Shown one piece after another: positions 34,898 to 54,140 of a stretch of 64,000 bases of DNA. A model generated the notes under the pieces. That model worked only from the letters and a program-made list of their open reading frames with translations, searched no databases and was not told where the DNA came from. The stretch is taken from positions 124,001 to 188,000 of the forward strand of contig NZ_FOHI01000004.1 of NCBI RefSeq assembly GCF_900111585.1, written 5' to 3'. The position numbers and the translations under genes are program-made. The stretch comes from Nitrosospira multiformis (GTDB lineage: Bacteria > Pseudomonadota > Gammaproteobacteria > Burkholderiales > Nitrosomonadaceae). Each line of letters opens with the position of its first letter. Within the stretch, counting starts at the first letter, position 1.

Positions 34898-36664
34898 ATG
34901 AAAGAAACGGTCAGCGATTTCCTGGTTCGACGTTTGTCCGAATGGGGGGTAAAACGTATCTTCGGCCTTCCTGGCGACGGCATCAACGGCATTATGGGGG
35001 CAATCAATCGAGCTTCAGATAAGCTCGAATTTATCCAGGTCAGGCATGAAGAGATGTCGGCGTTCATGGCGTGCGCCCATGCCAAGTTCACGGGGGAAGT
35101 GGGCATTTGCCTGGCCACCTCGGGCCCAGGAGCCATCCACCTGCTCAATGGTTTATATGATGCCAAGCTCGATCATCAGCCGGTGGTGGCGATAGTAGGT
35201 CAGCAGAAACGTACCGCTCTGGGGGGCAGCTACCAGCAGGAAGTCGATCTTGTTTCGCTCTTCAAGGATGTGGCGCATGAGTATGTTCATATTGTGACAA
35301 CACCGGGGCAAGCGCGCCACGTGCTCGATCGGGCTATGCGTATTGCAAAGGCCGAGCATAACGTATGCTGCGTTATTGTTCCCAATGACATCCAGGACAT
35401 GGAGTTTGTGAAACCCCCTCACGAACATGGCACGATTTATTCGGGAGTAGGATATCGGCCTCCCCAGGTGATTCCAGAGGTTGAGGACCTGCAACGGGCT
35501 GCGGATGTCCTGAACGATGGGTCGAAGGTGGCGATTCTGGTTGGCGCGGGAGCATTGAACGCAACAAGTGAAATTCTCCAGGTGGCTGATCTGCTCGGCG
35601 CGGGAATTGCCAAGGCGCTACTGGGAAAAACCGTGGTCCCTGACGATCTGCCTTATGTGACAGGGACAATCGGCATGCTGGGCACAAAGCCGAGCTACAG
35701 CATGATGACCGAGTGCGACACACTCCTGATGATCGGTTCCAGCTTTCCCTATTCCGAATTTCTGCCTGAGGAGGGGCAGGCACGCGGCGTCCAGATCGAT
35801 ATCGATGGACGAATGATGAGTATGCGGTACCCGATGGAGGTAAACCTCGTCGGGAATAGTGAGGATACGCTAAAGCTGTTGATACCGTTACTCAAAAGGA
35901 AGGAAGACCGTACGTGGCGCAACCGTATCGAGAGCAATGTCGACGAGTGGTGGAAGAAAATCGAGGCAAGAGCGATGGAGCCGGCAAACCCCATCAATCC
36001 CCAGCGTGTATTCTACGAGTTATCCCCACGGCTTCCGGATAATTGCATTCTCACAGGCGATTCGGGTTCTTCAACTTTCTGGTATGCGCGAGATATTCGA
36101 ATCCGTAAAGGCATGATGGCTTCGCTCTCTGGCGGTCTTGCTACGATGGGATCAGCCGTGCCCTATGCGATCGCGGCTAAATTTGCGCACCCTGACAGGG
36201 TGGTAATAGCCGTGACAGGAGATGGCGCCATGCAAATGAATGGCATGAACGAACTCATTACCGTCGTCAAATACTGGCGGCATTGGAGCGATCCACGACT
36301 AGTGGTACTGGTTTTGAATAATCGCGATCTGAACCTGGTAACCTGGGAGCAGAGGGCCACTGAGGGTGATCCAAAATTCGATGCCGCTCAGGATCTTCCG
36401 GATGTCCCATACGCAAGTTATGCAAAATTGATTGGTTTGCACGGTATACGCGTCGATCGCCCGGAAAATATCGCCAGCGCGTGGGATTGTGCCTTGGCCG
36501 CAGATCGGCCGGTGGTGCTCGAGGCATGTACCGATCCGAACGTGCCACCGTTGCCACCCCATGTCACTTTCAAACAGGTGAGAGCCTATACCTCAGCAAT
36601 CATGCAAGGTGATTCAGACTCGAGGGAAATCTTCAGGGAGACAGTCAAGCAGATTTTTGCCTGA
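34898..36664 (+). CDS. Thiamine-diphosphate-dependent enzyme (pyruvate oxidase/acetolactate synthase-like)
   Basis: 588 aa from the ATG at 34898 (MKETVSDFLVRRL); the 36 codons before it look non-coding. Three-domain TPP enzyme: N-terminal Pyr domain with FGLPGDGING and the cofactor-activating Glu51 in RHEEMSAF, a central domain, and a PP domain with the metal motif GDGAMQMNG (441 on) and NN at about 473. Closest in style to PoxB-like oxidases and catabolic acetolactate synthases. Whether it binds FAD or acts as an oxidase cannot be told. Confidence 0.82.
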   Translation: MKETVSDFLVRRLSEWGVKRIFGLPGDGINGIMGAINRASDKLEFIQVRHEEMSAFMACAHAKFTGEVGICLATSGPGAIHLLNGLYDAKLDHQPVVAIVGQQKRTALGGSYQQEVDLVSLFKDVAHEYVHIVTTPGQARHVLDRAMRIAKAEHNVCCVIVPNDIQDMEFVKPPHEHGTIYSGVGYRPPQVIPEVEDLQRAADVLNDGSKVAILVGAGALNATSEILQVADLLGAGIAKALLGKTVVPDDLPYVTGTIGMLGTKPSYSMMTECDTLLMIGSSFPYSEFLPEEGQARGVQIDIDGRMMSMRYPMEVNLVGNSEDTLKLLIPLLKRKEDRTWRNRIESNVDEWWKKIEARAMEPANPINPQRVFYELSPRLPDNCILTGDSGSSTFWYARDIRIRKGMMASLSGGLATMGSAVPYAIAAKFAHPDRVVIAVTGDGAMQMNGMNELITVVKYWRHWSDPRLVVLVLNNRDLNLVTWEQRATEGDPKFDAAQDLPDVPYASYAKLIGLHGIRVDRPENIASAWDCALAADRPVVLEACTDPNVPPLPPHVTFKQVRAYTSAIMQGDSDSREIFRETVKQIFA

Positions 36665-36890: not shown

Positions 36891-37484
36891 TCATTGATGC
36901 TCCCCTTGTTGTCGCGTAGGTGGCGTTCTACGAGGCAAAGTTGTGCTATGACTTTTCTGCGGTGGAAGCTCGCCATTTATCGTGTAGATAGGGCATGGTC
37001 CTGAATACCCTGGTATCGAGGGGGATCGCGTTGAGGTGATCTTGATGACTTGTCGGGCACCGGTTCCTGTCCCTGCTTCCGCAGTTGCATCTCTGTTCAG
37101 GTTTGGGGGATTACAAATGATATAACCATTGAATCTGTGAAGAGGCGTCCCGTGCGGCATGTAACTGCCGGGGTATTGAAAGCCGGATACCGTACCAATA
37201 TAAGGCTGTATAGGCAGCACAATGACCGGCCGGCCAAATGAATACGCGTTGAACTGGGTGTCATGATGAGCTTGTGCGGATACACCAGGCTGATTTATGA
37301 GGGCCGGAGAATAAAGAGACGAGTAAAAAGAGCTGCCAAGGGTACTTGGTGCCTCTTCCGCTAGGGATCCGGCTACCGGAACAATGCCTTCTGGCACACC
37401 CATTTCCCCCGCTCCCAACTCTTGTGCTGTAGCGTTTGAATATGGCAGACCAAATATAAGAAGCGTTACGAGTTTTTTTATCAC
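36891..37484 (-). CDS. Secreted hypothetical protein
   Basis: 197 aa. Signal peptide (KKLVTLLIFGLPYSNATAQ). The mature part is rich in Pro, Gly, Ser and Tyr, with PYIGTVSGFQYPGSYMPHGTP and only two cysteines (CNPP, GPCP). The C-terminus is Arg/Thr/Pro/Gln-rich. No known family. Last host gene before the phage block, on the opposite strand to it. Confidence 0.6.
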   Translation of the reverse strand: MIKKLVTLLIFGLPYSNATAQELGAGEMGVPEGIVPVAGSLAEEAPSTLGSSFYSSLYSPALINQPGVSAQAHHDTQFNAYSFGRPVIVLPIQPYIGTVSGFQYPGSYMPHGTPLHRFNGYIICNPPNLNRDATAEAGTGTGARQVIKITSTRSPSIPGYSGPCPIYTINGELPPQKSHSTTLPRRTPPTRQQGEHQ

Positions 37485-39067: not shown

Positions 39068-39640
39068 ATGGAAAGGGAAGCGCTGATAAAGCCGGCCATG
39101 TGTAAATTTGAGGGTGAAGTATCCAGCGAGGAAGCAGAAAAAGGTGCAGTAAGCGTAGAGCCCGCGAGTCCGAAAAAGAGCAGTCGAGCCATAAAGAGGC
39201 GTGAGGTACTTGATGCGATCTTTGCTGGCATTTCACTTGGAAAATCGGCTCGTGCGATGTGTGTGGAGGTCGGTATCAGTCAGAGGGTTTTATGGAACTG
39301 GCTGGCGAGTGACGAAGAACTCATGCGCCAATATCAACGCGCCAAGGAGCTTTGCGTGGATGCCTATGCGGAGGAAATCATCGAAATTTCGGACGAGGGA
39401 TCGAGAGATACGTATGTTGATGAAAAGGGACGGGAGGTCATAAACCGGGAGGTTATTGCGCGTGCGCAATTGCGCATCGATGCACGCAAATGGTATGCCG
39501 CCCGGCTTGCACCAAGGAAATATGGCGACAAATTACCTGCTACCAACGAGGGCGGCGATGCCAAGAAATCTGTGCATAACATTGCGATAGCTTTTGTCGC
39601 TCCGGAAGATAGAGGCAATGAGCCAAATGTGTCGTCGTAA
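39068..39640 (+). CDS. Phage terminase small subunit
   Basis: 190 aa. N-terminal acidic/basic tail, then a helix-turn-helix (IFAGISLGKSARAMCVEVGISQRVLWNWLASD, about residues 50-83) followed by QYQRAKELCVDAYAEEI and DARKWYAARLAPRKYGDK, a C-terminal signature shared by terminase small subunits of this type. It recognises phage DNA for packaging. The large subunit follows directly. Confidence 0.88.
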   Translation: MEREALIKPAMCKFEGEVSSEEAEKGAVSVEPASPKKSSRAIKRREVLDAIFAGISLGKSARAMCVEVGISQRVLWNWLASDEELMRQYQRAKELCVDAYAEEIIEISDEGSRDTYVDEKGREVINREVIARAQLRIDARKWYAARLAPRKYGDKLPATNEGGDAKKSVHNIAIAFVAPEDRGNEPNVSS

Positions 39641-39657: not shown

Positions 39658-40911
39658 ATGACCCCCCATAGAGCTGAATTTCCGATAAAGCTCAGGTTTT
39701 TGTTTGAACCGGCACGCTACAAGATTTTATACGGGGGAAGAGGGGGTGCAAAAAGCTGGGGCGTTGCCAGGGCATTATTGATTCAGGCGGCTGCAACCCC
39801 ATTGCGCATCTTGTGTGCGAGAGAGTTTCAGAATTCTATCGTCGAATCCGTGCATCATTTATTGAAAGCACAGATAGAGGCCATCGGCTTAAACTCATTT
39901 TACGAGGTGCAAAATAACGTTATACGGGGAACAAACGGTTCCGAGTTCATCTTTGCCGGTCTGCATAGCAACATAACCAGGATCAAGTCGTTCGAGGGTG
40001 TGGACAGGGTCTGGGTGGAAGAAGCCCAGACAGTGAGCAAGACAAGTTGGGATACGCTTATTCCGACTATTCGTAAAGAGAGGTCGGAAATCTGGGTGAC
40101 TTACAACCCTGAGCTCAATACCGACGAGACTCATCAGCGATTTGTAGTCAATCCTCCTGCTGGCGCTGTCGTAGTAAAAATCAATTGGAATGACAACCCA
40201 TGGTTTCCGGAGATACTGCGACGGGAGAAGGATGAACTGAAAGCGCGTGACCCGGATGCTTACCAGAACATATGGGAAGGGAATTGTAGGGTAGCGCTGG
40301 AGGGAGCGGTTTATGCGAAGGAGCTTCGATTGGCACAGGAAGAAGGAAGGATACGAAGCGTGCCATATGATGAGGCAAAGCCGGTACACACCTTCTTTGA
40401 TCTCGGTTGGGCCGACAACACCAGCATCTGGTTTGCGCAGACTGTTGGCAACGAACTCAGATTGATCGATTACTACAGTAATAGCCAGATGCCAATTCAG
40501 CATTATATCGGAGTGCTGCAAAACAAAGGGTATATGTATGGTACAGACTGGTTACCGCACGATGCCAGAGCCCGGACGCTGGCAACCGGACGCAGCGTGG
40601 AGGAAATTATGGTTGCGGCGGGGCGAAAAGTAAGAATCGTGCCAAATCTCTCCATCCATGATGGTATCAACGCGGCGAGAACGGTCTTTCCACGTTGCTA
40701 TTTTGATGAGCTGAATTGTGCAGAAGGCCTGCAGAGCCTGCGGCATTATCGATTTGATGTCGATCCTGATTCCGGTCAATTCAGCGCAAGGCCCTTACAT
40801 GATTATCACAGCCATGCAGCCGATGCCTTTCGCTATTTTGCCGTGGCAATCGAGGAGGATAAACCGGCTGTGAGCGCACGAGGTATTAATATGAAAGGTT
40901 GGCGGGCATGA
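39658..40911 (+). CDS. Phage terminase large subunit
   Basis: 417 aa packaging motor, PBSX-type. Walker A GGRGGAKS at residues 26-33, Walker-B-like VDRVWVEEAQ at about 115, and the C-terminal RNase-H-like nuclease domain with FFDLGWADNTSIWF and the final DYHSHAADAFRYFAVA. It cuts and pumps DNA through the portal. Its stop overlaps the portal start by four bases (ATGA). Confidence 0.93.
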   Translation: MTPHRAEFPIKLRFLFEPARYKILYGGRGGAKSWGVARALLIQAAATPLRILCAREFQNSIVESVHHLLKAQIEAIGLNSFYEVQNNVIRGTNGSEFIFAGLHSNITRIKSFEGVDRVWVEEAQTVSKTSWDTLIPTIRKERSEIWVTYNPELNTDETHQRFVVNPPAGAVVVKINWNDNPWFPEILRREKDELKARDPDAYQNIWEGNCRVALEGAVYAKELRLAQEEGRIRSVPYDEAKPVHTFFDLGWADNTSIWFAQTVGNELRLIDYYSNSQMPIQHYIGVLQNKGYMYGTDWLPHDARARTLATGRSVEEIMVAAGRKVRIVPNLSIHDGINAARTVFPRCYFDELNCAEGLQSLRHYRFDVDPDSGQFSARPLHDYHSHAADAFRYFAVAIEEDKPAVSARGINMKGWRA

Positions 40912-42899
40912 CTGAGGCAGGTGTTACGGCAGATATTTCGATTGAGGCTTACGACAAAATATGCCGGGATATTCGGGATCAACCGAAGTGGCGGTCGGAT
41001 TCGGACACGGACTGTGATTATTACGACGGCGCACAGACCAGTTCGGAGGTGATCGAACGACTGAAGATGGCCGGTATCCCGCCTCAGGATTCCAATCTGA
41101 TCAAACCGACGATCAACGCAGTATTGGGGTTGGAAGCGCGTAGCCGAGCGGATTACAGGGTGACGGCGGACGATGAGAGTCAGGCAGAGATTGCGGAAGG
41201 TCTTTCCGCAAAAATCAAGGAGGCCGAGACCGAGTCACGCGCTGACCGGGCCATGTCGGACGCGTATTCCAGCATGATTCGGGCGGGCATTGGGTGGGTA
41301 GAAATATCCCGGGAATTTGATGCGCTCAAATATCCATATCGTATCCGGGAGGTGCACCGTAACGAAATTTATTGGGACTGGAGTTCAAGGGAGCCGGATT
41401 TGTCCGATGCGCGATATCTGCGACGCGATAAGTGGATAGACCGGCTTCAGGCTGCACTTATGTTCCCTGACCGGGCGGAAATCATTGCAAATAGCTGGAA
41501 GGGATGGAACGGAACCGACGTATACGAAGGTTATGACAATGGCTTGGCGAGAGCGTATGAAATCGAGCAGGCCTGGAATCGCAACCAGGAAGATTACCTG
41601 AACCGGAACTCGGGTATGGTCAGGCTCTCCGAGTTATGGTATCGGCATTTCGAGGATGCATACGTCCTGGTATTGCCCGATGGAAAGATAATCGAATACC
41701 GCGAGGATAACCCATATCATCAGGCAGCGGTTGCCCAAGGTCTCGTGCAGGCCCAGAAATCGGTTCTCACCAGGATGCGGGTCTCGATCTGGTTGGGGCC
41801 GCATAAACTCATGGATGTTCCGAGTCCATTACCTCATTCAGATTTTCCATATGTTCCATTCTGGTGCTTTCGCAAGGATAGGAGTCGAGCTCCTTACGGA
41901 TTGATTCGTGATATGCGGGGACCGCAGGATCAGATTATCGATCTGGATATTCTTCTCTATGAAGTCCTCAATTCGGTAAAAGTCGAAGTGGACAATGATG
42001 CGCTCGATCTCAGCCAGAATTCTTATCAGGAGGTTGCGAATAATATAAGCAGTCTGCGCTCGATGACCATCCTCAACTCTCAGCGAAGGAATACCAGTGG
42101 CTTCAGGGTAATACGTGAGCATCAGCTTGCGGCTCAAGTGTTTCAGCTCGTGCAGGAACGCAAGCGCAGGATCGAGGAAGTGGGCGGAATCTACCGCACT
42201 ATGCTGGGAGCGCATACCTCAGCAAGCAGCGGTGTTGCGATCAACAGTCTGGTGGAGCAGGGGTCGACCGTGTTGGCGGAGCCCAATGATAATTTTCGCC
42301 ATGCTCGCCGACTTGTTGGCCAGCAACTTCTTGCGCTGATCAAGGAGGATCTGATTGGAAGACCCGCTCAAATTACAGTCCAGCAAGGTAATAAACCCAA
42401 GGTGGTTTATTTCAATCGCCAGTTGGATGACGGGTTGGTACACAACGACATTGCTTCTGCAATGGTCAAAGTTGTGCTTGAGGATATTCCTGCTACTCCG
42501 ACATTTCGGGCGCAGCAGTTGCAAGCCATGTCGCAAATCGTACAAGCTGCGCCCCCTCGGTTCCAGGCCGTACTTTATCCGGTAATGCTCGAGCTGTCCA
42601 ATGTCCCGAACCGGCATGAGTTGGCCCATCAGTTAAGGCAAGTGGCCGGCATCGACGATAATCCCCGATTCCAGGCTTTGCAGCAGCAAGTGCAGCAGAT
42701 GATACAGGAGGCGCAAGGGCAGATTGATGAGTTGCAGCAGAGATTGGGAGAGGCTGAGCAGCAGCTTAAGGATAAGGCATGCGAACTTGACTTGAAAGCG
42801 TATGCGCAGGCGCATAAAGAGGATATGGATGATGCGAAACTCCGTCTGGAGGCGGAGAAGATTGCTGATTGTCATATAGGTAACGCATTATCCGCATAA
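40908..42899 (+). CDS. Phage portal protein (P22-type)
   Basis: 663 aa from the ATG at 40908 in an ATGA overlap with the terminase. The sequence follows long podovirus portals: KICRDIRDQPKWR, DCDYYDGAQ, IKPTINAVLGLEARSRADYRV, EISREFD, IYWDWSSREPDLSDARYL and SSGVAINSLVEQG. The last about 80 residues (Gln/Glu-rich QQQVQQMIQEAQGQIDELQQRL) form a coiled coil, fitting the barrel of long portals. Confidence 0.9.
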   Translation: MTEAGVTADISIEAYDKICRDIRDQPKWRSDSDTDCDYYDGAQTSSEVIERLKMAGIPPQDSNLIKPTINAVLGLEARSRADYRVTADDESQAEIAEGLSAKIKEAETESRADRAMSDAYSSMIRAGIGWVEISREFDALKYPYRIREVHRNEIYWDWSSREPDLSDARYLRRDKWIDRLQAALMFPDRAEIIANSWKGWNGTDVYEGYDNGLARAYEIEQAWNRNQEDYLNRNSGMVRLSELWYRHFEDAYVLVLPDGKIIEYREDNPYHQAAVAQGLVQAQKSVLTRMRVSIWLGPHKLMDVPSPLPHSDFPYVPFWCFRKDRSRAPYGLIRDMRGPQDQIIDLDILLYEVLNSVKVEVDNDALDLSQNSYQEVANNISSLRSMTILNSQRRNTSGFRVIREHQLAAQVFQLVQERKRRIEEVGGIYRTMLGAHTSASSGVAINSLVEQGSTVLAEPNDNFRHARRLVGQQLLALIKEDLIGRPAQITVQQGNKPKVVYFNRQLDDGLVHNDIASAMVKVVLEDIPATPTFRAQQLQAMSQIVQAAPPRFQAVLYPVMLELSNVPNRHELAHQLRQVAGIDDNPRFQALQQQVQQMIQEAQGQIDELQQRLGEAEQQLKDKACELDLKAYAQAHKEDMDDAKLRLEAEKIADCHIGNALSA

Positions 42900-42912
42900 A
42901 AGGAGTAACAAG

Positions 42913-43488
42913 ATGATTCGGTTTCTGAATGATGAAACTGTGGCGGGATACAGATACGGTAAGGGCGCAATTTCCAGGTTTGATGATGTGACTGAGGCGA
43001 TTTTGATCGCTCAAGGTGATGCTGAAGATTATCCGGCAGTTACTAAGCCGGTAGAGGTACTGTCGAGTTCGGCTGTGGCTGCCTCATGCGCCTTGACAGC
43101 GGCGGATGAAGTTTTGGGGTCGTTTACGGTTCATGCGGGAATCATCGGCGTCAACAGCATCCTCCAGATCGAGCCGGTGTGGACATTCAGCAGTAGCGCG
43201 AACAACAAGATTCTGAAAGTCAGGGTTGGTAGTGTGACAGTTTACAGTGCCACCCGCACTATGTCTGTCAAAGAAGCGCCACTGATCGTTCTGGCAAATC
43301 GTAATTCCCTGACGTCGCAAATACAACCTTACGACAATGCGTACGTAACGGCAGGATCGGATACTCCAGCAACTTACACTATTAACTTTGCAAACAGTGT
43401 GACGGTCGATATTACCGGACAGAGAGCAAGCAATGGCGATGCGCTTAAACTCGAATACTATCGAGTGCTGCATTTCGTGGGGGATTAA
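42913..43488 (+). CDS. Phage structural protein with shared N-terminal module
   Basis: 191 aa. The first about 40 residues (MIRFLNDETVAGYRYGKG...FDDVTEAILIAQGDAEDY) match the N-termini of the proteins at 45568 and 47269. The rest is beta-rich and different (SSSANNKILKVRVGSV, LTSQIQPYDNAYVTAG). It follows the portal behind a strong AAAAGGAGTAAC site. The module may attach different beta-structured domains to the virion; this is an inference. No catalytic motif. Confidence 0.6.
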   Translation: MIRFLNDETVAGYRYGKGAISRFDDVTEAILIAQGDAEDYPAVTKPVEVLSSSAVAASCALTAADEVLGSFTVHAGIIGVNSILQIEPVWTFSSSANNKILKVRVGSVTVYSATRTMSVKEAPLIVLANRNSLTSQIQPYDNAYVTAGSDTPATYTINFANSVTVDITGQRASNGDALKLEYYRVLHFVGD

Positions 43489-45069
43489 ATGGCAGAGTGG
43501 TTCATTCGTCCTGACACGTCACACAGCGGAACGCGCAACGGGCAGTCTTATGATTTTGCCTGGGGAGGCTGGTCTGAGATTGTTTGGGGCAGTGCGGGAG
43601 TGGTCGGCGGTGATACTCTCTACGTGTGCGACTCACATTCATATGCCGCAATCCTTACCATAGGTGCGCACGGCGCAACGTCAGGCAGCCGCGTGACTAT
43701 TCGGGGGGATTACACGGGCCATCCGGGTGTAATCACGTTTTCTTCCGGAACTTACTACATTGATGCCAACAGAAATTATACGACTATAACTGCGCTGACA
43801 ATCAACGCGGGGAATAACGCTTGCATCTCTCCAGGGGGCGCACCACTAAAAGCCCTTTGGATCACAAACTGCACATTTTCGTGCGGCGCAGAAGCTGCAA
43901 TCAGATTCAGGACATTCAATACCTGGGCCTACGAAGATTGCATCATCAGCGGGAACTCTTTCAACGGGGGCTCAGGCTCGACTGGTGGCTCTGCAATCCA
44001 ATGGTATAACACGGCAGCCGTGGTGAGTACGATAAGCAACCTTCAGATTTACGGCAACACTTTTACCAACTGCTCATCGCAACGAGCCGTGATCCTGCTC
44101 AGGGCGCTGAATACGGTAGCCGTCGGGACCAAGCTGTCTGACATTGTGATCCGGGACAATACCTTTACCAATTGCTCTGCGGTCGCGGTGGAGGCGTATG
44201 GGCCGGAAACATATGGAGTGCATGCGGGAATACGAGTTTACAACAACAGGATAACCAACCAGTCCCAAGTCGGTATTTTGGGCGGCGGGTTTTCAATTGG
44301 TGGCTTTGGGCCATCAGCAACCCCGGGATTCGGCACAAACGACATTTACAACAACTGGTGTTCAGGGCTTCACGGGTTAACAGGCTTCTGCAACCCGATG
44401 TATGGGACATACCGCATTTTCAATAATTACGCGGAGAACATTACCAGTACTGACATAGATGGGTGCGGTGTGCTGTTCGATCATCAATGCAAGGATTCGG
44501 TGGCTTTTTCAAACGAATTCAGAAACATTACCGGCGACAGTTCGACCGGCAACTACAGAAGCGGATTCGGCATACTCGTACTTGATGCGACGAATGTAAC
44601 AGCCTTCGGAAACTTGATCGTAAATTGCGTGACGGGTATTGCATTCGGAAACAAGGGTCCGGGGCAGTCATCTAATATTCACAACAATACTTTTGTTAAT
44701 TGTTTCCAAAGTGGCGTGTATCTCGTCGGTGGCGCTAACAATACGACAAATATTGTGCGCAACAACATATTCACCACAAACAACAAGGCTCTTCCGGCAG
44801 TGAAGGTAGATTCGGCTGCGTGGACCGGCGAATCTAATAACTGCTTTTATGGATTTGGCGCACCATCCAAGCATACTCTGGCAGCATCGACAATTACAGC
44901 CGATCCACAACTGAATAATTCCTATCGCCCTCTGGCAGATGCGACAAAGCGCAAAGGCGTTTACCTAGGGGGCAAGGACTTCTACGGAAAACAGTTTTAT
45001 AACACTCCCAATATTGGGGCAGTGGAAGACGTAACGAACACCCCGCGTTATACATTGAGATATAGATAG
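43489..45069 (+). CDS. Right-handed beta-helix tailspike/depolymerase-like protein
   Basis: 526 aa starting directly after the upstream stop. A DUF-like N-terminal cap (about 1-60) is followed by many short repeats with Asn/Thr/Ile stacks (IYGNTFTNCSSQ, IRDNTFTNCSA, VYNNRITNQSQ, IHNNTFVNC), the pattern of a pectate-lyase-type parallel beta-helix. Such proteins bind or cut host surface polysaccharide. It has no classical head-binding domain. A C-terminal stretch with GAVED...TPRYTLRYR closes it. A terminator follows at 45091. Confidence 0.78.
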   Translation: MAEWFIRPDTSHSGTRNGQSYDFAWGGWSEIVWGSAGVVGGDTLYVCDSHSYAAILTIGAHGATSGSRVTIRGDYTGHPGVITFSSGTYYIDANRNYTTITALTINAGNNACISPGGAPLKALWITNCTFSCGAEAAIRFRTFNTWAYEDCIISGNSFNGGSGSTGGSAIQWYNTAAVVSTISNLQIYGNTFTNCSSQRAVILLRALNTVAVGTKLSDIVIRDNTFTNCSAVAVEAYGPETYGVHAGIRVYNNRITNQSQVGILGGGFSIGGFGPSATPGFGTNDIYNNWCSGLHGLTGFCNPMYGTYRIFNNYAENITSTDIDGCGVLFDHQCKDSVAFSNEFRNITGDSSTGNYRSGFGILVLDATNVTAFGNLIVNCVTGIAFGNKGPGQSSNIHNNTFVNCFQSGVYLVGGANNTTNIVRNNIFTTNNKALPAVKVDSAAWTGESNNCFYGFGAPSKHTLAASTITADPQLNNSYRPLADATKRKGVYLGGKDFYGKQFYNTPNIGAVEDVTNTPRYTLRYR

Positions 45070-45090
45070 AACCAAACAGATCAATCAGGA

Positions 45091-45119
45091 GCCGCCTCTG
45101 GAAACATTGGCGGCTTTTT
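45091..45119 (+). terminator. Intrinsic terminator (copy 1 of 3)
   Basis: GCCGCC (45091-45096), loop, GGCGGC (45109-45114), five T. The same sequence recurs at 47206 and 48907, at the ends of the duplicated cassettes. Confidence 0.85.
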
Positions 45120-45273
45120 ATTGGCTTTCGCTCATGCGAATGCGCTAGCGGCGATTATGCAGTTGTAGTGTTGAAACCCCTGATCAATGTGCTTCTTGTG
45201 CTTGCTCGGGGGTTTCTTTTTGAACCCTGCTCAAGGCAGGCCCGCTCACTGGGTTAAGTAGTTTGGAGGAAAG

Positions 45274-45540
45274 ATGGAAGTGGATCAGCTTAATTCGCAA
45301 ATCTTACCCCGGAACAAATCGAGATATCGGAAAGCGGCTTGGGCAAGCTTGCGGAGGTTCTAGGCAGGCAGGAAGCACCGGAGGAAGAGGAAAAGGAGAA
45401 ATCCGGCCCCGATGTGAAGGATGCCATGCTCAGCAAGGAGAGCGACGATGAAGGTGAAGATAGTCTGTCATTCTGAACAAGAGCGGCAAGGGAACTGCTC
45501 CCTATAGAAGCACAAGGAGTTGCGGGTAGAGAACTATTTA
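45274..45540 (+). pseudogene. Decayed copy of the scaffold gene 5' end
   Basis: From the ATG at 45274 the DNA matches the start of the scaffold gene at 49080, including the upstream TGGAGGAAAG. It has lost bases (a 14-base stretch near the start is shortened) and has early stops. Homology runs through GTAGAGAACT near 45537 and then ends sharply where the LamG/lyase cassette begins. The leader 45174-45273 also matches 48980-49079. This is a remnant of a duplication that took in the front of the scaffold gene. Confidence 0.85.
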
Positions 45541-45567
45541 ATATTTGGATAAACGGAAAGGGCAAAT

Positions 45568-46446
45568 ATGATTCGATTTCTGAGCGATACAACTTTATCA
45601 GGATATCTTTACGGGAAGGGAACTGCTGTGTCCTTCGATAAAAGTGTTGAGGACAGTCTGATAGCACTGAAGAGTGCTGAAGCGTACGATCCTGACGGAT
45701 TCCATCCTTATTACCACTTTCACGGCTTCACGGGAAACCAGGTTGCAGACGACGATAAATTTTACGATCTGACAGGAATAAACCATGCTTCGCGCGGCGT
45801 AAACCTGTCGGTCTCGCAACTGTGGACGCCGAATTCCGGCTATGCGTCCACGATTGACCCGGCAAGCGGTGCAACCGATTCCGTATTGCGCATTCCCAAT
45901 CTGAACTATGACTATGCGGGTGGCGAGAAGCTGATTATCTGGTGGCTTGGCAAGGTTACGGCAGAAACAATACCTGCCCGGATGATGGGCGATGGTTATG
46001 GTACGTCCCCAGGACAGGGAGGCATTCGTATCGCATTATACACAACCGGATTTGTCGGTTTCGTACTGTCGGGTGCTACCGAAGTTTACTCTTCAAATGG
46101 GCACAAGAGCATTTCCGGCGGCGTGCACAGTTTTGCCATAGCCATAAGCGGTGGTGGGCAGAAGGGGCAGCACGGCATATGGGTGGACGAGGAATATTCA
46201 TTCTCTGAAGGCTCATATACCTCGCTAGCCGGCGGGATAGATACACGCAATTCCAACACGTTCAACATCGGCACATCCTACCCTGCGTCTGCCAAATCCA
46301 CTTTGGGTATCGCAACGGCTACGAGGGCTTTGGTAATACTCAAGCTTCCTGCCAGCTATCCCATGCCTTCTGTGGGAACTCTGACAAGTGTTTTTCAACA
46401 GCTTCGCTCGAATCCGGGCAATCCCATTTTGAGGAGCGCGTTCTGA
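45568..46446 (+). CDS. Phage LamG-like protein, cassette copy 1
   Basis: 292 aa. The N-terminal about 40 residues (MIRFLSDTTLSGYLYGKG...) are the module shared with the post-portal protein at 42913. The rest reads as a concanavalin/LamG-type beta-sandwich (WWLGKVTAETIPARMMGDGYGTSPGQGG, HSFAIAISGGGQKGQHGIWVDEEYSF, TFNIGTSYPA). It could bind host polysaccharide. About nine in ten residues match the copy at 47269. Its TGA overlaps the ATG of the next gene. Confidence 0.72.
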   Translation: MIRFLSDTTLSGYLYGKGTAVSFDKSVEDSLIALKSAEAYDPDGFHPYYHFHGFTGNQVADDDKFYDLTGINHASRGVNLSVSQLWTPNSGYASTIDPASGATDSVLRIPNLNYDYAGGEKLIIWWLGKVTAETIPARMMGDGYGTSPGQGGIRIALYTTGFVGFVLSGATEVYSSNGHKSISGGVHSFAIAISGGGQKGQHGIWVDEEYSFSEGSYTSLAGGIDTRNSNTFNIGTSYPASAKSTLGIATATRALVILKLPASYPMPSVGTLTSVFQQLRSNPGNPILRSAF

Positions 46447-47183
46447 TGACTCAGTTATCCAATTTTCCTCTTGACGTCGACTTCGCCGGTACGTATTTAC
46501 AGGCAAATGGCATCGAGGGCCCGGGAAATAAGATGCTGAGCGGAATTTCTGATCGACTTGAGATTATCAACGGAGCAGCCAGAACAACGTTATACGGTGC
46601 GGACCGGCAAACAAACTACGGGTACAGAACCGAAATACGACTCGGAACATTTCCTAATTCCGGCGAATGCTGGTCCTCAGTAGATTTCATGATTGATCCC
46701 TCGTGGACAACTAACGGAGTTTCTGGTCTCGGTTCCTGGTATCCGACACCGGATGCCGGGGAAGAGTTGCTTGTTAAGCACGTCAATATCGGTTTGCGTC
46801 TCGTGAATAGAGATACGCTCTTTGTGAATGTCCCTGCTGCGGTGTTGCCTGCTGTAAGTAGTACGGGCAAGACAGTTGCGATTGCCAAGATACAGCAAGG
46901 GCAGTGGCATACTGTAACGATCAGAGTAAATCTGCAAACAACTGCTGTTGGATGGCGCGAGGTTTATCTGGACCACGTGAAGATTTTCGGGGAATACAAC
47001 GTACCCACGGCTTATGAGGACGCAGTTGGTCCCAGTTTCAAGATGGGGCCAAGAACGCTCGTCCAGGACTATGACAAGGTGAGAATGTGGGTACGGAACG
47101 CCAAGCAATGGATTGGCAATGAAAGTTTCTCGACGGTGATGAGGGAAGCGCCAGTGTCGCCCTCGAGAATGCTGCGGCAATAA
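46446..47183 (+). CDS. Phage polysaccharide-lyase-like jelly-roll protein, copy 1
   Basis: 245 aa, start coupled (TGATG) to the LamG-like gene. Beta-rich, with YRTEIRLGTFPNSGECW, WHTVTIRVNLQ, GWREVYLDHVKIFGEYN and FKMGPRTL, a pattern like heparin-lyase/family-20 polysaccharide lyases of the concanavalin fold. No family match can be proven by eye. The sister copy at 48147 is about three-quarters identical, clearly less than the LamG pair, with differences in patches. Likely a receptor-degrading or -binding domain. Confidence 0.6.
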   Translation: MTQLSNFPLDVDFAGTYLQANGIEGPGNKMLSGISDRLEIINGAARTTLYGADRQTNYGYRTEIRLGTFPNSGECWSSVDFMIDPSWTTNGVSGLGSWYPTPDAGEELLVKHVNIGLRLVNRDTLFVNVPAAVLPAVSSTGKTVAIAKIQQGQWHTVTIRVNLQTTAVGWREVYLDHVKIFGEYNVPTAYEDAVGPSFKMGPRTLVQDYDKVRMWVRNAKQWIGNESFSTVMREAPVSPSRMLRQ

Positions 47184-47205
47184 CGTTTTAATCAGACTCT
47201 ATCGA

Positions 47206-47235
47206 GCCGCCTCTGGAAACAGTGGCGGTTTTTTT
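47206..47235 (+). terminator. Intrinsic terminator (copy 2 of 3)
   Basis: GCCGCC (47206-47211), loop, GGCGG (47224-47228), seven T. It forms the boundary between cassette units 1 and 2. Confidence 0.85.
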
Positions 47236-47268
47236 ATTTGGATAAACGGAAAGGGAAAGGGTAAATAT

Positions 47269-48147
47269 ATGATTCGATTTCTGAGCGACACAACTTTGTC
47301 AGGATATCCTTACGGGAAGGGAACTGTTGCGTCCTTCGATAAAAGTGTTGAGGACAGTCTGATAGCACAGAAGAGTGCTGAAGCATACGATCCTGACGGA
47401 TTCCATCCTTATTACCACTTTCACGGCTTCACGGGAAAGCAGGTTGCAGACGACGATAAATTTTACGATCTGACAGGAATAAACCATGCTTCGCGCGGCG
47501 TAAACCTGTCGGTCTCGCAACTGTGGACGCCGAATTCCGGCTATGCGTCCACGATTGACCCGGCAAGCGGTGCAACCGATTCCGTATTGCATATTCCCAA
47601 TCTGAACTATGACTATGCGAGTGGCGAGAAGCTGATTGTCTGGTGGCTTGGCAAAGTCACACCCGAGGGTTCGGTCGCTCGAATGATGGGCGATGGTTAT
47701 GGTACGTCCCCAGGACAGCGGGGCATTAATATTGTATTGCAAACAACCGGACTTGCCGGTTTCGTACTGTCGGGTGCTACCGAAGTTTACTCTTTAAATG
47801 GGCACAAGAGCATTTCCGGCGGCCTGCACAGTTTTGCTATAGCCGTAAGCGGTGGGGCGCAGGGGGGGCAGCACGGCATATGGGTGGACGAGGAATATTC
47901 ATTCTCTGAAGGCTCATATACTTCGCTAGCCGGCGGGATAGATACACGCAATTCCAACGCGTTCAACATCGGCACATCCTACCCTGCGTCTGCCAAATCC
48001 ACTTTGGGTATCGCAACGGCTACGAGGGCTTTGGTAATACTCCGGCTGCCTGCCAACTATCCCATGCCCTCCGTGAAAACTCTGACAAGTGTTTTTCAAC
48101 AGCTTCGCTCGAATCCGGGCAATCCCATTTTGAGGAGCGCGTTCTGA
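47269..48147 (+). CDS. Phage LamG-like protein, cassette copy 2
   Basis: 292 aa, same length as copy 1. Differences cluster at about residues 131-160 (PEGSVARMM, GQRGINIVLQTTGLAG) and in scattered single changes; the N-terminal module and the HFHGFTG...FYDLTG part are almost unchanged. Intact, with a TGATG link to the next gene. AAAGGGAAAGGG before the ATG can serve as ribosome binding site. Confidence 0.72.
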   Translation: MIRFLSDTTLSGYPYGKGTVASFDKSVEDSLIAQKSAEAYDPDGFHPYYHFHGFTGKQVADDDKFYDLTGINHASRGVNLSVSQLWTPNSGYASTIDPASGATDSVLHIPNLNYDYASGEKLIVWWLGKVTPEGSVARMMGDGYGTSPGQRGINIVLQTTGLAGFVLSGATEVYSLNGHKSISGGLHSFAIAVSGGAQGGQHGIWVDEEYSFSEGSYTSLAGGIDTRNSNAFNIGTSYPASAKSTLGIATATRALVILRLPANYPMPSVKTLTSVFQQLRSNPGNPILRSAF

Positions 48148-48884
48148 TGACTCAGTTATTCAATTTTCCTCTTGACGTCGATTTCGCCGGTACGTATTTA
48201 CAGGCAAATGGCATGGAGGGGCCTGGAAATACCATGCTGGCCGGGATGAGCGATCATATCAAGATTGTGGATGGAGCGGCACAACTGACGCTGTATGGCA
48301 CAGACGCAGAAACAAATTTCGGTCATAGAACCGAAGTCAGTTTTCCTGCATTTCCTAATTCCGGCGAATGCTGGTCCTCAGTAGATTTCATGATTGATCC
48401 TTTGTGGACAACTAACGGGGTTTCTGGTCTCGGTTCCTGGTATCCGACACCGGATGCCGGGGAAGAGTTGGTTGTTAAACACGTTAACATCGGTCTGCGC
48501 ATTGTCGATCAGGAAACGCTTTTTGTGGCCGTCCCCGCGACTACGCTTCCGGCAGTAACTTCAACCGGAAGGATTGTAGCAGCAAGGAAGGTGGAAAAAG
48601 GCAAGTGGCATAACGTCACGATTCGCGCAAATCTACAAACAAACGCTACCGGCTGGCGCGAGGTTTATCTGGACCGCATGAAGATTTTCGGGGAATACAA
48701 CGTACCCACGGCTTATGAGGACGCAAATGGTCCCTATTTCAAGGTGGGACCAAGAACGCTTTCTCAGGACTATGACATGGTGAGAATGTGGGTACGGAAC
48801 GTCAAGCAATGGACTGGCAACGAAAGTTTTCCGGCGGTTATGGAGGAAGTGCCAGTGTCGCCCTTAAGAATGCTGCAGCAATAA
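48147..48884 (+). CDS. Phage polysaccharide-lyase-like jelly-roll protein, copy 2
   Basis: 245 aa. Identical to copy 1 in blocks (PNSGECWSSVDFMIDP, SGLGSWYPTPDAGEEL, FGEYNVPTAYED) and clearly different in others (HIKIVDGAAQLTLYGTD, EVSFPAFP, TTLPAVTSTGRIVAARKVEKG). The patchy pattern suggests gene conversion between copies or selection for change on exposed loops. Both copies are open, so both may be made. Confidence 0.6.
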   Translation: MTQLFNFPLDVDFAGTYLQANGMEGPGNTMLAGMSDHIKIVDGAAQLTLYGTDAETNFGHRTEVSFPAFPNSGECWSSVDFMIDPLWTTNGVSGLGSWYPTPDAGEELVVKHVNIGLRIVDQETLFVAVPATTLPAVTSTGRIVAARKVEKGKWHNVTIRANLQTNATGWREVYLDRMKIFGEYNVPTAYEDANGPYFKVGPRTLSQDYDMVRMWVRNVKQWTGNESFPAVMEEVPVSPLRMLQQ

Positions 48885-48906
48885 CGTTTTAATCAGACTC
48901 TATCGA

Positions 48907-48936
48907 GCCGCCTCTGGAAACAGTGGCGGCTTTTTT
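48907..48936 (+). terminator. Intrinsic terminator (copy 3 of 3)
   Basis: GCCGCC (48907-48912), loop, GGCGGC (48925-48930), six T. It is followed by the scaffold leader. Confidence 0.85.
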
Positions 48937-49079
48937 ACTGGCTTTCATGCGAACGCTAGCGGCAATTGCAGTAGTAGTCCTGGAAACCTCTGATCAACGC
49001 ACTTCTTGTGTTGCTCGGGGTTTTTTTGAACCCTGCTCAAGGCAGGCCCGCTCACTGGGTTAAGTAGTTTGGAGGAAAG

Positions 49080-50042
49080 ATGGAATTGGATCAGCTTACG
49101 GATGAGCAAATCGCAAATCTTACGCCGGAACAAATCGAAATATTGGAAAGCGACCCGAATAAGCTCGCAGAAATTCTAGGCAGGCAGGAAGCACCTGAGG
49201 AAGAGGAAACGGAGAAATCCAGCTCCGATGTGAAGGACGGCATGCCCGGTAAGGCGAGCGGCGATGAAAGTGAAGATGAGCCTGTCGTTCTGAACAAGAG
49301 CGGCAAGGGGACCATTCCCTACCAGAAGCACAAGGAACTGCGGGTAGAGAACTCGGCGCTGCGTGAGCAGCTAAAATCCGCGCAAGGCAAACTCGATGAA
49401 TTCCTGATGCGGAAAGAGGAAGCAAAGGAAGTAGAGACCGTTGCGCTGGATGAAAAACTCAAGACGCACCTGGAGGCTCTGAAAGAAGAAATGCCTCAAC
49501 TTCATCAGGTACTCAGCGCGCTACTCGAGGGAAGTCGGAAGCAAGGCGAAAGGCTGGAGCAAACGCTGCGGGAGCTGGAGCGCGAAAAGGAGGAATCGGA
49601 GCGCACAAGCCAAGTGAGTACTGCAGAGCAAGTCGCCGAGGCAAAGGACAATAACCCAGATCTGGTGCATTGGGAAAGTAATGACCCTGGCGCCTGGGAA
49701 GAAGCGCTGAAGCAGGACGAAATTCTGAGAATCAATACGAAGTGGGCAGAAAAGCCTTATGCAGAGCGGTTCCAGGAGGTTGTCCGTCGTGTCAGGGCGA
49801 TTATGCCGGAAGCCTCCACTCCAAAAAAGAAATCCGATCCGGGAATGATGAAAGCGGATGTGCAAGCCAAGCTTGAGGCAGCCCCGGTGAGGAAGCCTGT
49901 AACTCTATCAGACATTCAGGGTGGAGCAAATCCAGCCTCTGAACGTGAGCAGCTTGAGAGTCTGAGCCCATTTGAACTTGCTCAGAAGCTGATGAAGATG
50001 CCCACGCATCAGGCGGCAGCCTTGAGAGCCGAACTTGATTAA
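49080..50042 (+). CDS. Phage scaffold-like head assembly protein
   Basis: 320 aa, acidic and helical: N-terminal LTDEQIANLTPEQIEIL, a Glu/Ser-rich linker, a long coiled coil (KELRVENSALREQLKSAQGKL to LERTLRELEREKEESERT, about 85-180) and a C-terminal helical region (LSPFELAQKLMKMPTH). The place between portal and capsid, with this composition, fits a scaffold protein. GGAGGAAAG precedes the ATG. Confidence 0.75.
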   Translation: MELDQLTDEQIANLTPEQIEILESDPNKLAEILGRQEAPEEEETEKSSSDVKDGMPGKASGDESEDEPVVLNKSGKGTIPYQKHKELRVENSALREQLKSAQGKLDEFLMRKEEAKEVETVALDEKLKTHLEALKEEMPQLHQVLSALLEGSRKQGERLEQTLRELEREKEESERTSQVSTAEQVAEAKDNNPDLVHWESNDPGAWEEALKQDEILRINTKWAEKPYAERFQEVVRRVRAIMPEASTPKKKSDPGMMKADVQAKLEAAPVRKPVTLSDIQGGANPASEREQLESLSPFELAQKLMKMPTHQAAALRAELD

Positions 50043-50056: not shown

Positions 50057-51328
50057 ATGGCTGAAACAAACGTAGCAAGCGGAAGTTCACTGGCAGTCAA
50101 ACATTATAGCGCGGCGCTCTTCGCCAACACGCTCAAAGGATCCACAGCGATTGACAGCCTTGTCGGCCCGGTCGAGCCTTCAGTAGCAATGCAGAAAATT
50201 GCCGGTCAAACAAATCCGGGCATGCCTATTGTGCGTATCGATAATTTAATGAAAAGTGCTGGCGATGTCGTATCGCTCGATCTGGTCGATACGGTGGGCG
50301 GTGAACCGTTGATGGGCGATGTCAATCGTGAAGGACGGGGCAGTGCACTTTCGTTTTCCTCGATGGAGATCAAGATCGATCTATCCAGTAAGGTCATCGA
50401 TGCCGGTGGCAGCATGTCGCAGCAACGCACCAAGCATCAGTTGCGTGAAATTGCCCTGGCGCAATTGTCAGGTTATTTTCCCCGTCTCGACGCTCAGGAA
50501 ACACTGGTGCATCTTGCAGGAGCACGCGGTTCGCAAACGGGTTCGGACTGGACAGTACCGCTTCAAACCGCACCGAACTTCAGTTCCATAATGGTGAACC
50601 CCGTGAAGGCCCCTACCTATAATCGTCATTTTGTAGTGAACGGCGCCAATTTGACTTCAGGGGGACAGCAGTTGGGATCCATCGTTTCAACGGATGGCCT
50701 GCGCTTGTCGCATCTGGATCTGCTGCGGAAGAGGCTTGATGACATGGACCAGCCATTGCAATCCGTCAAACTGGCAGGGGATCGAGCCGCCCAGACTTCC
50801 AAGATGTGGGTATTTCTCGCTACACCCAATCAGTACTCGCTCCTTTTGACCGAAGGTTCGTTACGTGCATTCCAGCAGAACGCCATCAATCGAGCGGCAT
50901 ATTTTGACGAGCGCCATCCGCTGTTTGCCGGTGAGGTTGGGATGTGGAATGGCATTCTGGTGATCAAGAATGAGCGTGCGATCCGTTTTATGCCTGGCGA
51001 AAGCACGAAGATAGTTACCGCAGCAAACGCGGCAGCTGCAACAGAAACCGATCAAGCTGTCAATGGAGCATTGACTGCCGGGTACGCGATCGAGCGCGGA
51101 TTATTATTAGGCGCACAAGCACTGGGTGTCGCTTATGGCAAAACCAGGGTCAGCGGAATGCAGTTCGGATGGAAGGAGCATTGGTATAACTTTGAAAGTA
51201 ACCTGGAAGTGATGGGTGAGAAGGTTTGCGGCAAAGCGAAAACCCGTTTCTCTATCGACGATGGAACAGGTTTCAAGGTACCGACCGACTTTGGCGTGAT
51301 TGCGGTTGACTCGGCTGTACCGCTTTAA
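50057..51328 (+). CDS. Major capsid protein (N4-gp56/DUF4043 type)
   Basis: 423 aa. Starts MAETNVASGSSLAVKHYSAALF and carries SLDLVDTVGGEPLMGDVNREG, the KIDLSSKVIDAGGSMSQQRT stretch and ERGLLLGAQALGVAYGK, patterns known from N4-gp56-family capsid proteins. HK97-type fold by family. It follows the scaffold gene by 14 bases. Confidence 0.85.
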   Translation: MAETNVASGSSLAVKHYSAALFANTLKGSTAIDSLVGPVEPSVAMQKIAGQTNPGMPIVRIDNLMKSAGDVVSLDLVDTVGGEPLMGDVNREGRGSALSFSSMEIKIDLSSKVIDAGGSMSQQRTKHQLREIALAQLSGYFPRLDAQETLVHLAGARGSQTGSDWTVPLQTAPNFSSIMVNPVKAPTYNRHFVVNGANLTSGGQQLGSIVSTDGLRLSHLDLLRKRLDDMDQPLQSVKLAGDRAAQTSKMWVFLATPNQYSLLLTEGSLRAFQQNAINRAAYFDERHPLFAGEVGMWNGILVIKNERAIRFMPGESTKIVTAANAAAATETDQAVNGALTAGYAIERGLLLGAQALGVAYGKTRVSGMQFGWKEHWYNFESNLEVMGEKVCGKAKTRFSIDDGTGFKVPTDFGVIAVDSAVPL

Positions 51329-51919: not shown

Positions 51920-52288
51920 ATGCCAAAAGTCAAATATATTGCCACCGGCATCAAGATTGACAGCATCAATGGGGTGGGATTGCGCTGGGAACCGGGCCAA
52001 GTGCGGAATGTAAGCGCTGAAGTTACTGAGAGGCTGCTCGTCTACTCCGATACCTGGATTCGCGTCCACGATGAGACGCTGGATAACGTTGTGCCGATCG
52101 GGCTGGCGCAAGCAGAGAAACCGGTTGAAGAACCGCTGCCGGTGATCGACTTTCATTCCATGGGTAAAAAAGCCCTGCTTGAGTTTGCCGAGCGCAAATA
52201 CAACGAACGGCTGGACAAGCGCCAAAACGAGGGAACGATACGGCATAAAGTGATTGCCCTGTTTTCCAAGAACGAGATGCCGGACTAA
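51920..52288 (+). CDS. Phage head-region hypothetical protein
   Basis: 122 aa. The N-terminal part (KYIATGIKIDSINGVGLRWEPGQVRNVSAEVTERLLVYSD) is like small beta modules of head-associated proteins. The C-terminal part is helical (KKALLEFAERKYNERLDKRQNEG). Stop and start overlap (TAATG) with the next gene. TGAGG lies before the ATG. Role unknown. Confidence 0.5.
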   Translation: MPKVKYIATGIKIDSINGVGLRWEPGQVRNVSAEVTERLLVYSDTWIRVHDETLDNVVPIGLAQAEKPVEEPLPVIDFHSMGKKALLEFAERKYNERLDKRQNEGTIRHKVIALFSKNEMPD

Positions 52289-53243: not shown

Positions 53244-54140
53244 ATGGGACTCAAGTTCTCGAATTTTGGCAAGGCCATTATCAGTTCCGCCCCGAGCGGG
53301 ACAACAGGATTGAGCTTCACGGTGGAGGCCGGAAAGGGCGTTCTCTTTCCATCGCCCGGCATCGGAGATTATTTCTATGGCATATTCAAGGATGCTTCCG
53401 GCAACCGGGAAATTGTGAAAATCGAGGCACGTACGACCGACAGCTTAACCATCGCGCAAGGAGGGCGAGGACTGGACGGTACGGCTCCCCGTACCTGGGC
53501 AGCAGGCGATTACTTCGTTGCCGGCGTGACCAACATCGCCTTGCAGGAATCCCTTGCAAATCCAAATCTCCAAGCGCTTGGCGCCCTGGAAACGTCAGCC
53601 GATAAGATGGCCTATTTCAGTGGACCGGGCACAGCTGCATTGGCGAATCTGAGTTCCTATATCCGGAGCTTGCTGGATGATGATAATGCAGCGGCTGCAA
53701 GAGCGACTCTAGGCGCTGCGCCTGCGAGCCTCATTCCCCCTGGAACCGTTATGTCATTTTTTCAGGCGACGGCTCCGGCAGGCTGGACTCAGGTCACGAC
53801 GCACCATAATAAGGCACTGCGCGTTGTAGGAAGTGCCGGTGGCGGTTCGGGGGGTTCGGTCGCGTTCACGTCTGCCTTCACGTCGCAGGCAGTTTCGGGT
53901 TGGAACAGCGCGACGACATTGACTTCGGCGCAGATACCGGCGCATACGCACACTTTGAGTGTGTATGGGACATCAGGCGGAGGGGCTAACCCCAGCGGTG
54001 GGGGAGGTGGAATTATTACCGGAATGCCAATTACAGATGCCGGCACAGGTGGCGGTGGCTCGCACAGCCATATTTTTACCGGCACGGCCATCAACCTTGC
54101 CGTGCAGTACATCGACATAATCATAGCGAGTAAGGATTGA
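53244..54140 (+). CDS. Tail fibre protein with collar-type C-terminus
   Basis: 298 aa. The N-terminal half is beta-rich (SNFGKAIISSAPSGTTGLSFTVEAGKGVLFP, IKIEARTTDSLTIAQGGRGLDGTAPRTW). The C-terminal part has PPGTVMSFFQATAPAGWTQV, a His-containing IPAHTHTLSVYG and a Gly-rich GGGSHSHIF, the tail-collar/short-fibre pattern with paired His that may hold metal. It is followed by a small gene and a tail-assembly chaperone. Confidence 0.75.
   Translation: MGLKFSNFGKAIISSAPSGTTGLSFTVEAGKGVLFPSPGIGDYFYGIFKDASGNREIVKIEARTTDSLTIAQGGRGLDGTAPRTWAAGDYFVAGVTNIALQESLANPNLQALGALETSADKMAYFSGPGTAALANLSSYIRSLLDDDNAAAARATLGAAPASLIPPGTVMSFFQATAPAGWTQVTTHHNKALRVVGSAGGGSGGSVAFTSAFTSQAVSGWNSATTLTSAQIPAHTHTLSVYGTSGGGANPSGGGGGIITGMPITDAGTGGGGSHSHIFTGTAINLAVQYIDIIIASKD

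Follow-up and report, generated by a model that had tools for sequence, protein, structure and literature searches.

Between the portal and scaffold genes of a phage-derived element of Nitrosospira multiformis lies an array of two-gene cassettes. We take this array, with a probability of roughly 60 %, to represent receptor-recognition spike modules of a vertically inherited element of podovirus type, and infer both their attachment to the virion and their function. Each cassette consists of a gene A, starting with a common N-terminus of about 41 amino acids (the tag), followed immediately by an untagged gene B. The tag would be an interchangeable anchor that docks the A protein on the virion, the remainder of A being a domain of sugar-binding type. 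The enzyme-fold protein B, translated directly behind A, would work with it, putatively as a complex, on a surface polysaccharide as the presumed ligand. The array itself would have grown by recombination.

The window, i.e. the whole stretch of 64,000 nucleotides that was analysed, holds the element from position 36891 to its last position, 64000, all features given here being on the forward strand. PHROG and Pfam matches include terminase, portal, coat, tail, lysozyme and spanin genes. The element continues past the window and is smaller than 30 kb; on one side it is flanked by a TPP-enzyme gene that ends at 36664 and on the other by a glycosyltransferase gene near 66.4 kb (window numbering), its exact boundaries being presumed. 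The small (39068..39640; phrog_1482, E 1.5e-34) and large (39658..40911; phrog_3717, E 4.3e-67) terminase subunits are followed by a portal protein (40899..42899; PF16510, E 9.5e-105) of the kind that characterizes P22-type podoviruses. The scaffold (49080..50042) is assigned by position and by family (phrog_479, E 1.1e-52, which has no PHROG function; PF06810 is weak and under the cut-off). The major capsid protein (50057..51328; E 3.9e-158) matches PF13252, Phage_capsid_3, not a coat family named after P22. Further downstream are a 122-aa protein (51920..52288), whose type of N-terminus replaces the tag as anchor where relatives have displaced cassettes, and a separate tail-fibre-like protein (53244..54140; phrog_8469, E 1e-17), the existence of which means that the cassettes may be accessory.

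The first cassette (42913-45069) was overlooked in the original prediction. It comprises A0 (42913..43488; 191 aa), in which the tag HMM places the N-terminal tag at 42913-43035 in front of a cargo domain, and B0 (43489..45069; 526 aa), a right-handed beta-helix (PF13229, E 7.3e-11). Its tag is that of the cassettes downstream, as is the kind of terminator hairpin past it (45087..45118; MFE -18.4, z -3.9). Next come two tandem units (45542..47236 and 47235..48937) that are 87.3 % identical over 1704 aligned columns. Unit 1 holds A1 (45568..46446; 292 aa, tag 45568-45690), B1 (46446..47183; 245 aa) and a terminator hairpin (47204..47231; MFE -18.1 kcal/mol, z -5.4). Unit 2 has the same layout with A2 (47269..48147; 292 aa, tag 47269-47391), B2 (48147..48884; 245 aa) and its hairpin (48905..48932; MFE -20.5 kcal/mol, z -4.6). 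In both units the A and B reading frames overlap at TGATG. This gene pair, repeated in adjacent units that end at the same terminator, had been described correctly, and protein identities estimated at about 90 % and 77 % were computed as 90.8 % for the 292-aa and 75.9 % for the 245-aa proteins. Chance or an assembly error as the source of the tandem is excluded by the length of the units, the divergence between them and an independent two-unit copy in a second genome (G097, locus L163, on a contig of 3,184,243 bases). The metagenome-assembled genome G101 may also have two units, its contigs breaking inside A at unit positions 330 and 659.

The original prediction regarded this location as unusual. 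Within the family, however, cassettes usually sit in the portal-scaffold gap: 47 of 53 family elements have one or more tagged cassettes there, against one of 9 more distant elements. The counts derive from 194 loci, reduced to 130 portal-scaffold pairs by dropping loci that lack either gene and to 62 by collapsing shared 600-base scaffold ends; the rows include close relatives and partial contigs, and the contig of L069 stops shortly past the scaffold, too early to place its cassette. Tagged genes were detected with a profile HMM, a stricter regular expression having found a single gene. Behind every tagged gene in the slot (61/61), a B gene of at least 150 aa begins at -26 to +12 nt, and among these tagged genes three A-cargo clusters combine with five B clusters. 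The number of tandem units at the site, proposed earlier as a check, varies among relatives: six family elements have an empty slot, L005-L008 and L106 have one unit, and G097 has two. In three of the empty-slot elements (L179, L180 and L067) a gene of the second-anchor type (227 aa) lies downstream of the coat gene, the A0 cargo being identified on this anchor in L179 and L180; in L120, another empty-slot element, the second anchor is followed by a PL-type gene.

These displaced cargoes bear on the question of whether the cassettes are instead lysogenic-conversion genes (morons) that the bacterium expresses in order to modify its own surface and that have nothing to do with the particle. In favour of morons, every cassette is closed by a terminator of its own, and the portal-scaffold gap of two of five isolated phages inspected contains unrelated small genes, one in H66 and 11 in Y7. 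However, the cargo moves to another slot within the virion-gene block, and a scan for sigma-70-like promoters gave none, against a chance expectation of 6.3. Moreover, the same tag (E 1.5e-9) heads a 554-aa protein of L093 with a pectate-lyase-like PF12708 domain and a C-terminal S74 chaperone domain, an architecture that, judged from its domains, is that of a tailspike. Morons thus seem quite improbable, and spike modules, possibly with a role in host range, are preferred. The tag belongs to no named family; a search of 50,697 phage records gave a single match, which is unrelated (E 5), and 299 further genomes from the order gave four weak matches only (E 0.0026-0.0089). No tblastn match to A0, A1 or B1 was obtained in the isolated-phage collection.

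Sugar-binding and lyase-type folds had been predicted for the tandem proteins, and the second of these is borne out. B1 (48.5 bits, E 1.3e-12) and B2 (42.5 bits) both exceed the gathering cut-off of 29.9 bits for the polysaccharide lyase family PF14099, and the B family profile matches 2zzj (E 4.4e-12), which presumably uses H53, Q91 and Y200. The fold assigned to A1 is more tentative: in a poor structural model (mean pLDDT 52), its cargo resembles, with low confidence, a concanavalin/LamG-like beta-sandwich, a fold type of sugar recognition. With E values up to 1 allowed, A1 matches neither a Pfam family, LamG/concanavalin profiles included, nor any PDB sequence.

Whether B1 and B2 are active lyases that degrade the host capsule, i.e. 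the depolymerases originally proposed, depends on residues other than the Arg motif R-T-E, which is kept in 18 of 18 members along with the PL7/PL20-type fold. According to PMC9410210, the catalytic His and Tyr of PL7 enzymes lie in the motifs QIH and YFKAGVYNQ. Neither QxH nor YFKAGxY is present in B1 or B2: at these positions all ten members of their subgroup read SWY and (S/Y)FK(M/V)GPRT, with Tyr and Arg replacing His and Tyr, whereas the catalytic Tyr is kept in the eight other family members. Active lyases therefore have little probability, and with both catalytic residues missing, B1 and B2 are probably likelier to bind than to cut. The array would then show how an enzyme fold may turn into a binding protein.

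A further piece of the array, absent from the original prediction, records how it was built. Between cassette 0 and unit 1 lies a decayed duplicate (45089..45535) of the terminator, the leader and the scaffold gene as far as codon ~91, which is 84 % identical to 48905-49353 and contains two in-frame stops. Its endpoint, scaffold nt 272-273, is identical in 7 of 7 close relatives. In the ancestor of these relatives, a single duplication would have inserted a cassette together with the scaffold start into the 5' part of the scaffold region, leaving the dead fragment behind.

Along the tandem units, blocks of identity alternate with blocks of change, as had been noted. Among the four units of the two double-unit strains, 119 sites group by position, 65 by genome and 3 otherwise, in a mosaic of only 16 runs, a number so low in 0 of 20,000 permutations. 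The part of the original prediction that invoked duplication and conversion agrees with this mosaic, in which the strain-grouped blocks are best read as conversion and the position-grouped blocks as a pair of ancient alleles that purifying selection maintains. The divergent, position-grouped blocks of B1 (46520..46647 and 46799..46977; B2 counterparts 48221-48348 and 48500-48678) have dS values of 3.05 and 1.60 and dN/dS of 0.12 and 0.18, against a dS of 0.05 between units for A codons 1-116. They are thus old alleles rather than the rapidly changing sequences once suspected; rapid diversifying selection was dropped as an explanation because every block in which the units were compared has a dN/dS under 1.

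The earlier view was that one unit duplicated in place and the copies then diverged, single-unit relatives having lost one. Two strains do share both units with the same divergent blocks, and the single unit of L005, which tracks unit 1 as far as roughly position 570 and switches to unit 2 thereafter (187 of 207 sites), fits a collapsed pair. However, the dS of 1.6-3 in the B blocks far exceeds the 0.14 found for portal and coat between the two double-unit strains, and the single-unit relatives are split, with type-1 blocks in L006-L008 and type-2 blocks in L005 and L106. Bringing two old alleles into tandem needs fewer steps than an early duplication with later losses, and in-place duplication appears rather unlikely. 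According to the preferred scenario, the LamG/lyase-fold module would have come to stand as two divergent alleles side by side after the scaffold duplication, and conversion would continue to homogenise some blocks while others persist as two fixed alleles. The array would thereby display stepwise addition of modules, marked by the dead scaffold fragment, then duplication and partial homogenisation.

The element is present in all 23 genomes of the genus Nitrosospira, each with an open, full-length terminase large subunit. The same host genes adjoin it in 19 of the 23; for the other four a common location was not demonstrated. Five of these 19 have a rearranged region, in which the gene that flanks the other side is 192-398 kb away and reversed. 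Element distances correlate with host gene distances (Mantel rs 0.51-0.71, equalled in 0 of 2000 permutations each), the TonB receptor gene being an imperfect host marker, and coat and portal are under purifying selection (dN/dS 0.04-0.08 against L163). For the cassette genes, A0 compared with the host gives rs 0.35 (43/2000, n=11). B0 is much more divergent than the portal of the same seven genomes (distance 0.53 vs 0.17); its incongruence with the host is not shown by the Mantel test (rs 0.67, 65/2000, n=7).

Could this ubiquity reflect an ordinary active prophage, with normal tailspikes, whose infecting ancestors integrated at one preferred site? A review reports that cadmium induces prophage in N. 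multiformis 25196, in a passage that does not name the prophage (PMC9502458, citing Choi et al. 2010), and additional, non-syntenic terminase copies occur in G103, G110, G113 and G114. However, divergence of the element tracks the host gene, no tRNA gene is present in the window or the following 40 kb, and of the 34 ORFs scanned in the window copy (a set without small or overlapping antisense ones), many of which have no assigned family, none was recognised as an integrase, repressor or replication gene. A search for inverted repeats of at least 14 bases found none. An active prophage is an unlikely source, and vertical inheritance of the element is favoured.

Gene transfer agents (GTAs), particles that package mainly host DNA and deliver it, are known from few groups, mainly alphaproteobacteria, Brachyspira, Desulfovibrio and Methanococcus. 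Three of the features by which they are recognised, i.e. capsid, portal, tail and terminase genes in one cluster, inheritance within a clade at one chromosomal locus, and lack of integration, lysogeny and replication genes, are found here, the last among the ORFs scanned in the window copy. The podovirus-type particle is thus possibly a GTA. A fuller version of this reading, tentative and short of an even chance, is that Nitrosospira makes a podovirus-derived GTA or similar domesticated particle, with a chromosomally inherited backbone and swapped spikes. Some strains would have locked two spike alleles in tandem, as a permanent heterozygote with two specificities, and the second gene would be a former lyase turned lectin. 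Neither a GTA in Nitrosospira nor these cassettes appear among the literature matches listed; a genus-wide, chromosomally fixed particle with a P22-type portal in ammonia oxidisers would, if true, be a new GTA candidate.

Several known systems resemble parts of this element. PL7 alginate lyases and the PL20 glucuronan lyase have the beta-jelly-roll fold and the Arg motif, but their catalytic His and Tyr positions are replaced in the ten LamG-paired members here. Sepvirinae (Stx phages) and Hollowayvirus (H66/F116 group) share the terminase-portal-scaffold-coat order and a portal 36-37 % identical; however, those among the records listed are 57-66-kb phages, and the tagged cassette was seen in none of five inspected. 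Like alphaproteobacterial GTAs, as defined in PMC6209664, the element is a defective-prophage-like head, tail and terminase cluster at one locus under purifying selection, but it has a P22-type portal and belongs to a betaproteobacterial ammonia oxidiser. The head spikes of RcGTA, a capsid base protein with a capsule-binding fibre, resemble the proposed spikes in having two components, one a sugar-binding-type protein, on a phage-derived particle (PMC10218006). In RcGTA the first ~10 residues of the fibre attach it to the base protein, whereas in the present cassettes the tag belongs to the first gene. Finally, tailspikes combine an N-terminal docking domain, an enzyme fold and an S74 chaperone; here too a short N-terminal domain is common to varied carbohydrate-active cargo, and one tagged relative has both PF12708 and Peptidase_S74, but anchor and enzyme fold are carried by two adjacent genes sited between portal and scaffold.

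The original prediction of two tandem units of about 1.69 kb is borne out: at 45542-47236 (unit 1) and 47235-48937 (unit 2) the window carries two stretches of 87.3 % identity, each with a 292-aa ORF (gene A) overlapping a 245-aa ORF (gene B) at TGATG and ending in a hairpin terminator identical in kind. Between units, the A proteins are 90.8 % and the B proteins 75.9 % identical. Two upstream features had been overlooked. The first is a further cassette (42913-45069), consisting of A0 (191 aa), whose N-terminal ~40 residues are the same as in the 292-aa proteins, and B0, a beta-helix protein of 526 aa (PF13229, E 7.3e-11), with a similar hairpin at its 3' side. The second is a decayed scaffold copy (45089-45535; 84 % identity, two in-frame stops) comprising the terminator, the leader and the first ~91 codons. 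Sigma-70-like promoters were not found within 42800-49200 of the window, against 6.3 expected by chance.

The N-terminal ~41 residues common to the A genes (the tag) are widespread between portal and scaffold genes. From 194 loci, 130 portal-scaffold pairs and finally 62 non-redundant elements were obtained, and their ORFs were searched with a tag profile. In the 53 elements whose scaffold is at least 45 % identical to that of the window, this gap holds one tagged gene in 36, two in 9, three in 2 (the window's element and L163) and none in 6. With at least one such gene in 47/53 elements, the place of the cassette, thought to be unusual, is the common one within this family. Among the 9 more distant elements, one has a single tagged gene there and 8 have none. 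Behind every one of the 61 gap-located tagged genes, at a distance of -26 to +12 nt, comes a gene of at least 150 aa. The remainder of the A proteins, their cargo, forms 3 clusters and the B proteins 5, with A cluster 0 partnering three B clusters. Since the gap is empty or contains small unrelated genes in the five isolated relatives inspected, it is an insertion site of a known kind, which here serves a dedicated purpose.

An assembly artefact is ruled out by a second two-unit copy at the same place, L163, located on a contig of 3,184,243 bases in genome G097. Comparison of unit number in related elements, as initially proposed, gives two in L163 and one in each of five relatives from IMG/VR (L005 to L009). 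In the MAG G101, contigs C20 and C15 (loci L188 and L106) break within the LamG-like gene, at unit positions 330 and 659, which could be an effect of a collapsed tandem repeat. The dead scaffold fragment stops at scaffold nucleotide 272-273 in all seven elements of the window's group, and this common end point traces it to a single ancestral event; the fragment was not found (E 1e-4) in the other multi-cassette elements L121, L031, L041 and L043.

The suggestion that the locus diversifies by duplication and conversion finds support in the mosaic that emerges when both units of the window are compared with both units of L163. Of the informative sites, 119 unite the units by position, 65 by genome and 3 in some other way, and the first two classes form 16 runs, so few being reached in 0/20,000 permutations. 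Between blocks grouping by position, 22 sites at unit positions 1112-1208 group by genome, a tract that bears the mark of within-genome conversion between copies. The divergent B blocks have dS values of 3.05 (near saturation, hence rough) and 1.60, with dN/dS of 0.12 and 0.18, and same-position dS between the two strains is 0.02-0.31; judged from these rates, the blocks are old alleles under purifying selection. Blocks as in unit 1 occur in the single-unit L006-L008, and those as in unit 2 in L005 and L106. An old duplication followed by losses might also account for this distribution, and the single unit of L005, unit-1-like to about position 570 and unit-2-like beyond (187/207 sites), has the pattern that would be expected of a collapsed pair. 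We nevertheless favour the union of two alleles as the origin of the pair.

Exchange also concerns what the tag carries. L093, with its slot unoccupied, carries the tag (E 1.5e-9) at the start of a 554-aa protein that combines PF12708 with a Peptidase_S74 domain at the C-terminus, the layout of a tailspike. The cargo of A0 is found downstream of the coat gene in L179 and L180, on a different N-terminus, related to a 122-aa protein of the window (51920-52288), with beta-helix genes next in the stretches seen. Another such displaced gene, of 227 aa, is present in L067, and in L120 the alternative anchor is followed by a PL-type gene. Cargo therefore switches between two slots and between two anchors, and we infer that the particle is the docking site of both anchors. 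Three genomes of the genus gave no match to the tag at E 1e-5: G096, G099 and G102, the genomes that harbour L180, L179 and L181 (a duplicate of L120). A second tagged protein in L073 (18471-20069; 532 aa, without a Pfam family) directly precedes a tail-fibre-like gene, so that the tag is in use at a third position.

The phage-derived element itself, which runs from 36891 past the window end, is a constant feature of the genus. Its scaffold is present in 23/23 genomes, compared to 1/102 other genomes of the family, and the terminase is open and full-length in all 23. The locus was defined by an upstream FAD-oxidase gene (9-22 kb) and/or a downstream TonB-receptor gene (22-39 kb), on the expected side and in the same orientation. 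Markers are in place in 19/23 genomes (both in 7, upstream only in 5, downstream only in 7), the other marker lying 192-398 kb away in 5 of the 19; in the remaining 4, neither is on the element's contig. For terminase, portal, scaffold and coat, the distances are correlated with those of the TonB-receptor gene (rs 0.60, 0.71, 0.55 and 0.51; 0/2000 each). Against L163, portal and coat both show a dS of 0.14, with dN of 0.011 and 0.006, indicative of purifying selection; B0 is saturated or almost so against 5/6 relatives. No integrase, repressor or replication genes were recognised among the 34 ORFs of the window's copy compared with PHROGs. On these grounds the element is chromosomally fixed, without recognisable means to move itself, while its recognition genes get exchanged. 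Second, non-syntenic terminase copies of the same element type exist in G103, G110, G113 and G114 and may belong to real mobile relatives. In the right flank, at about 66.4-68.6 kb (L259:4380-6627, - strand), lie a family-2 glycosyltransferase gene (PF00535) and an O-antigen-ligase-type gene (PF04932), with matches downstream of the element in several other genomes.

The best-supported mechanism is an anchor-plus-cargo spike module carried on a podovirus-type particle. According to the review PMC9502458, cadmium triggers prophage induction in N. multiformis 25196, which means that particles may be produced, be it from this prophage or from a different one. Residing at one locus in at least 19/23 genomes, the element is possibly a gene transfer agent or another domesticated particle, the first of these options being the bold reading. 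The nearest working analogy for the spike module, proposed as an analogy only, is the capsule-binding head spikes of the gene transfer agent RcGTA (PMC10218006). The position of surface-polysaccharide genes next to recognition genes is also reminiscent of the RcGTA spike gene, which adjoins capsule genes.
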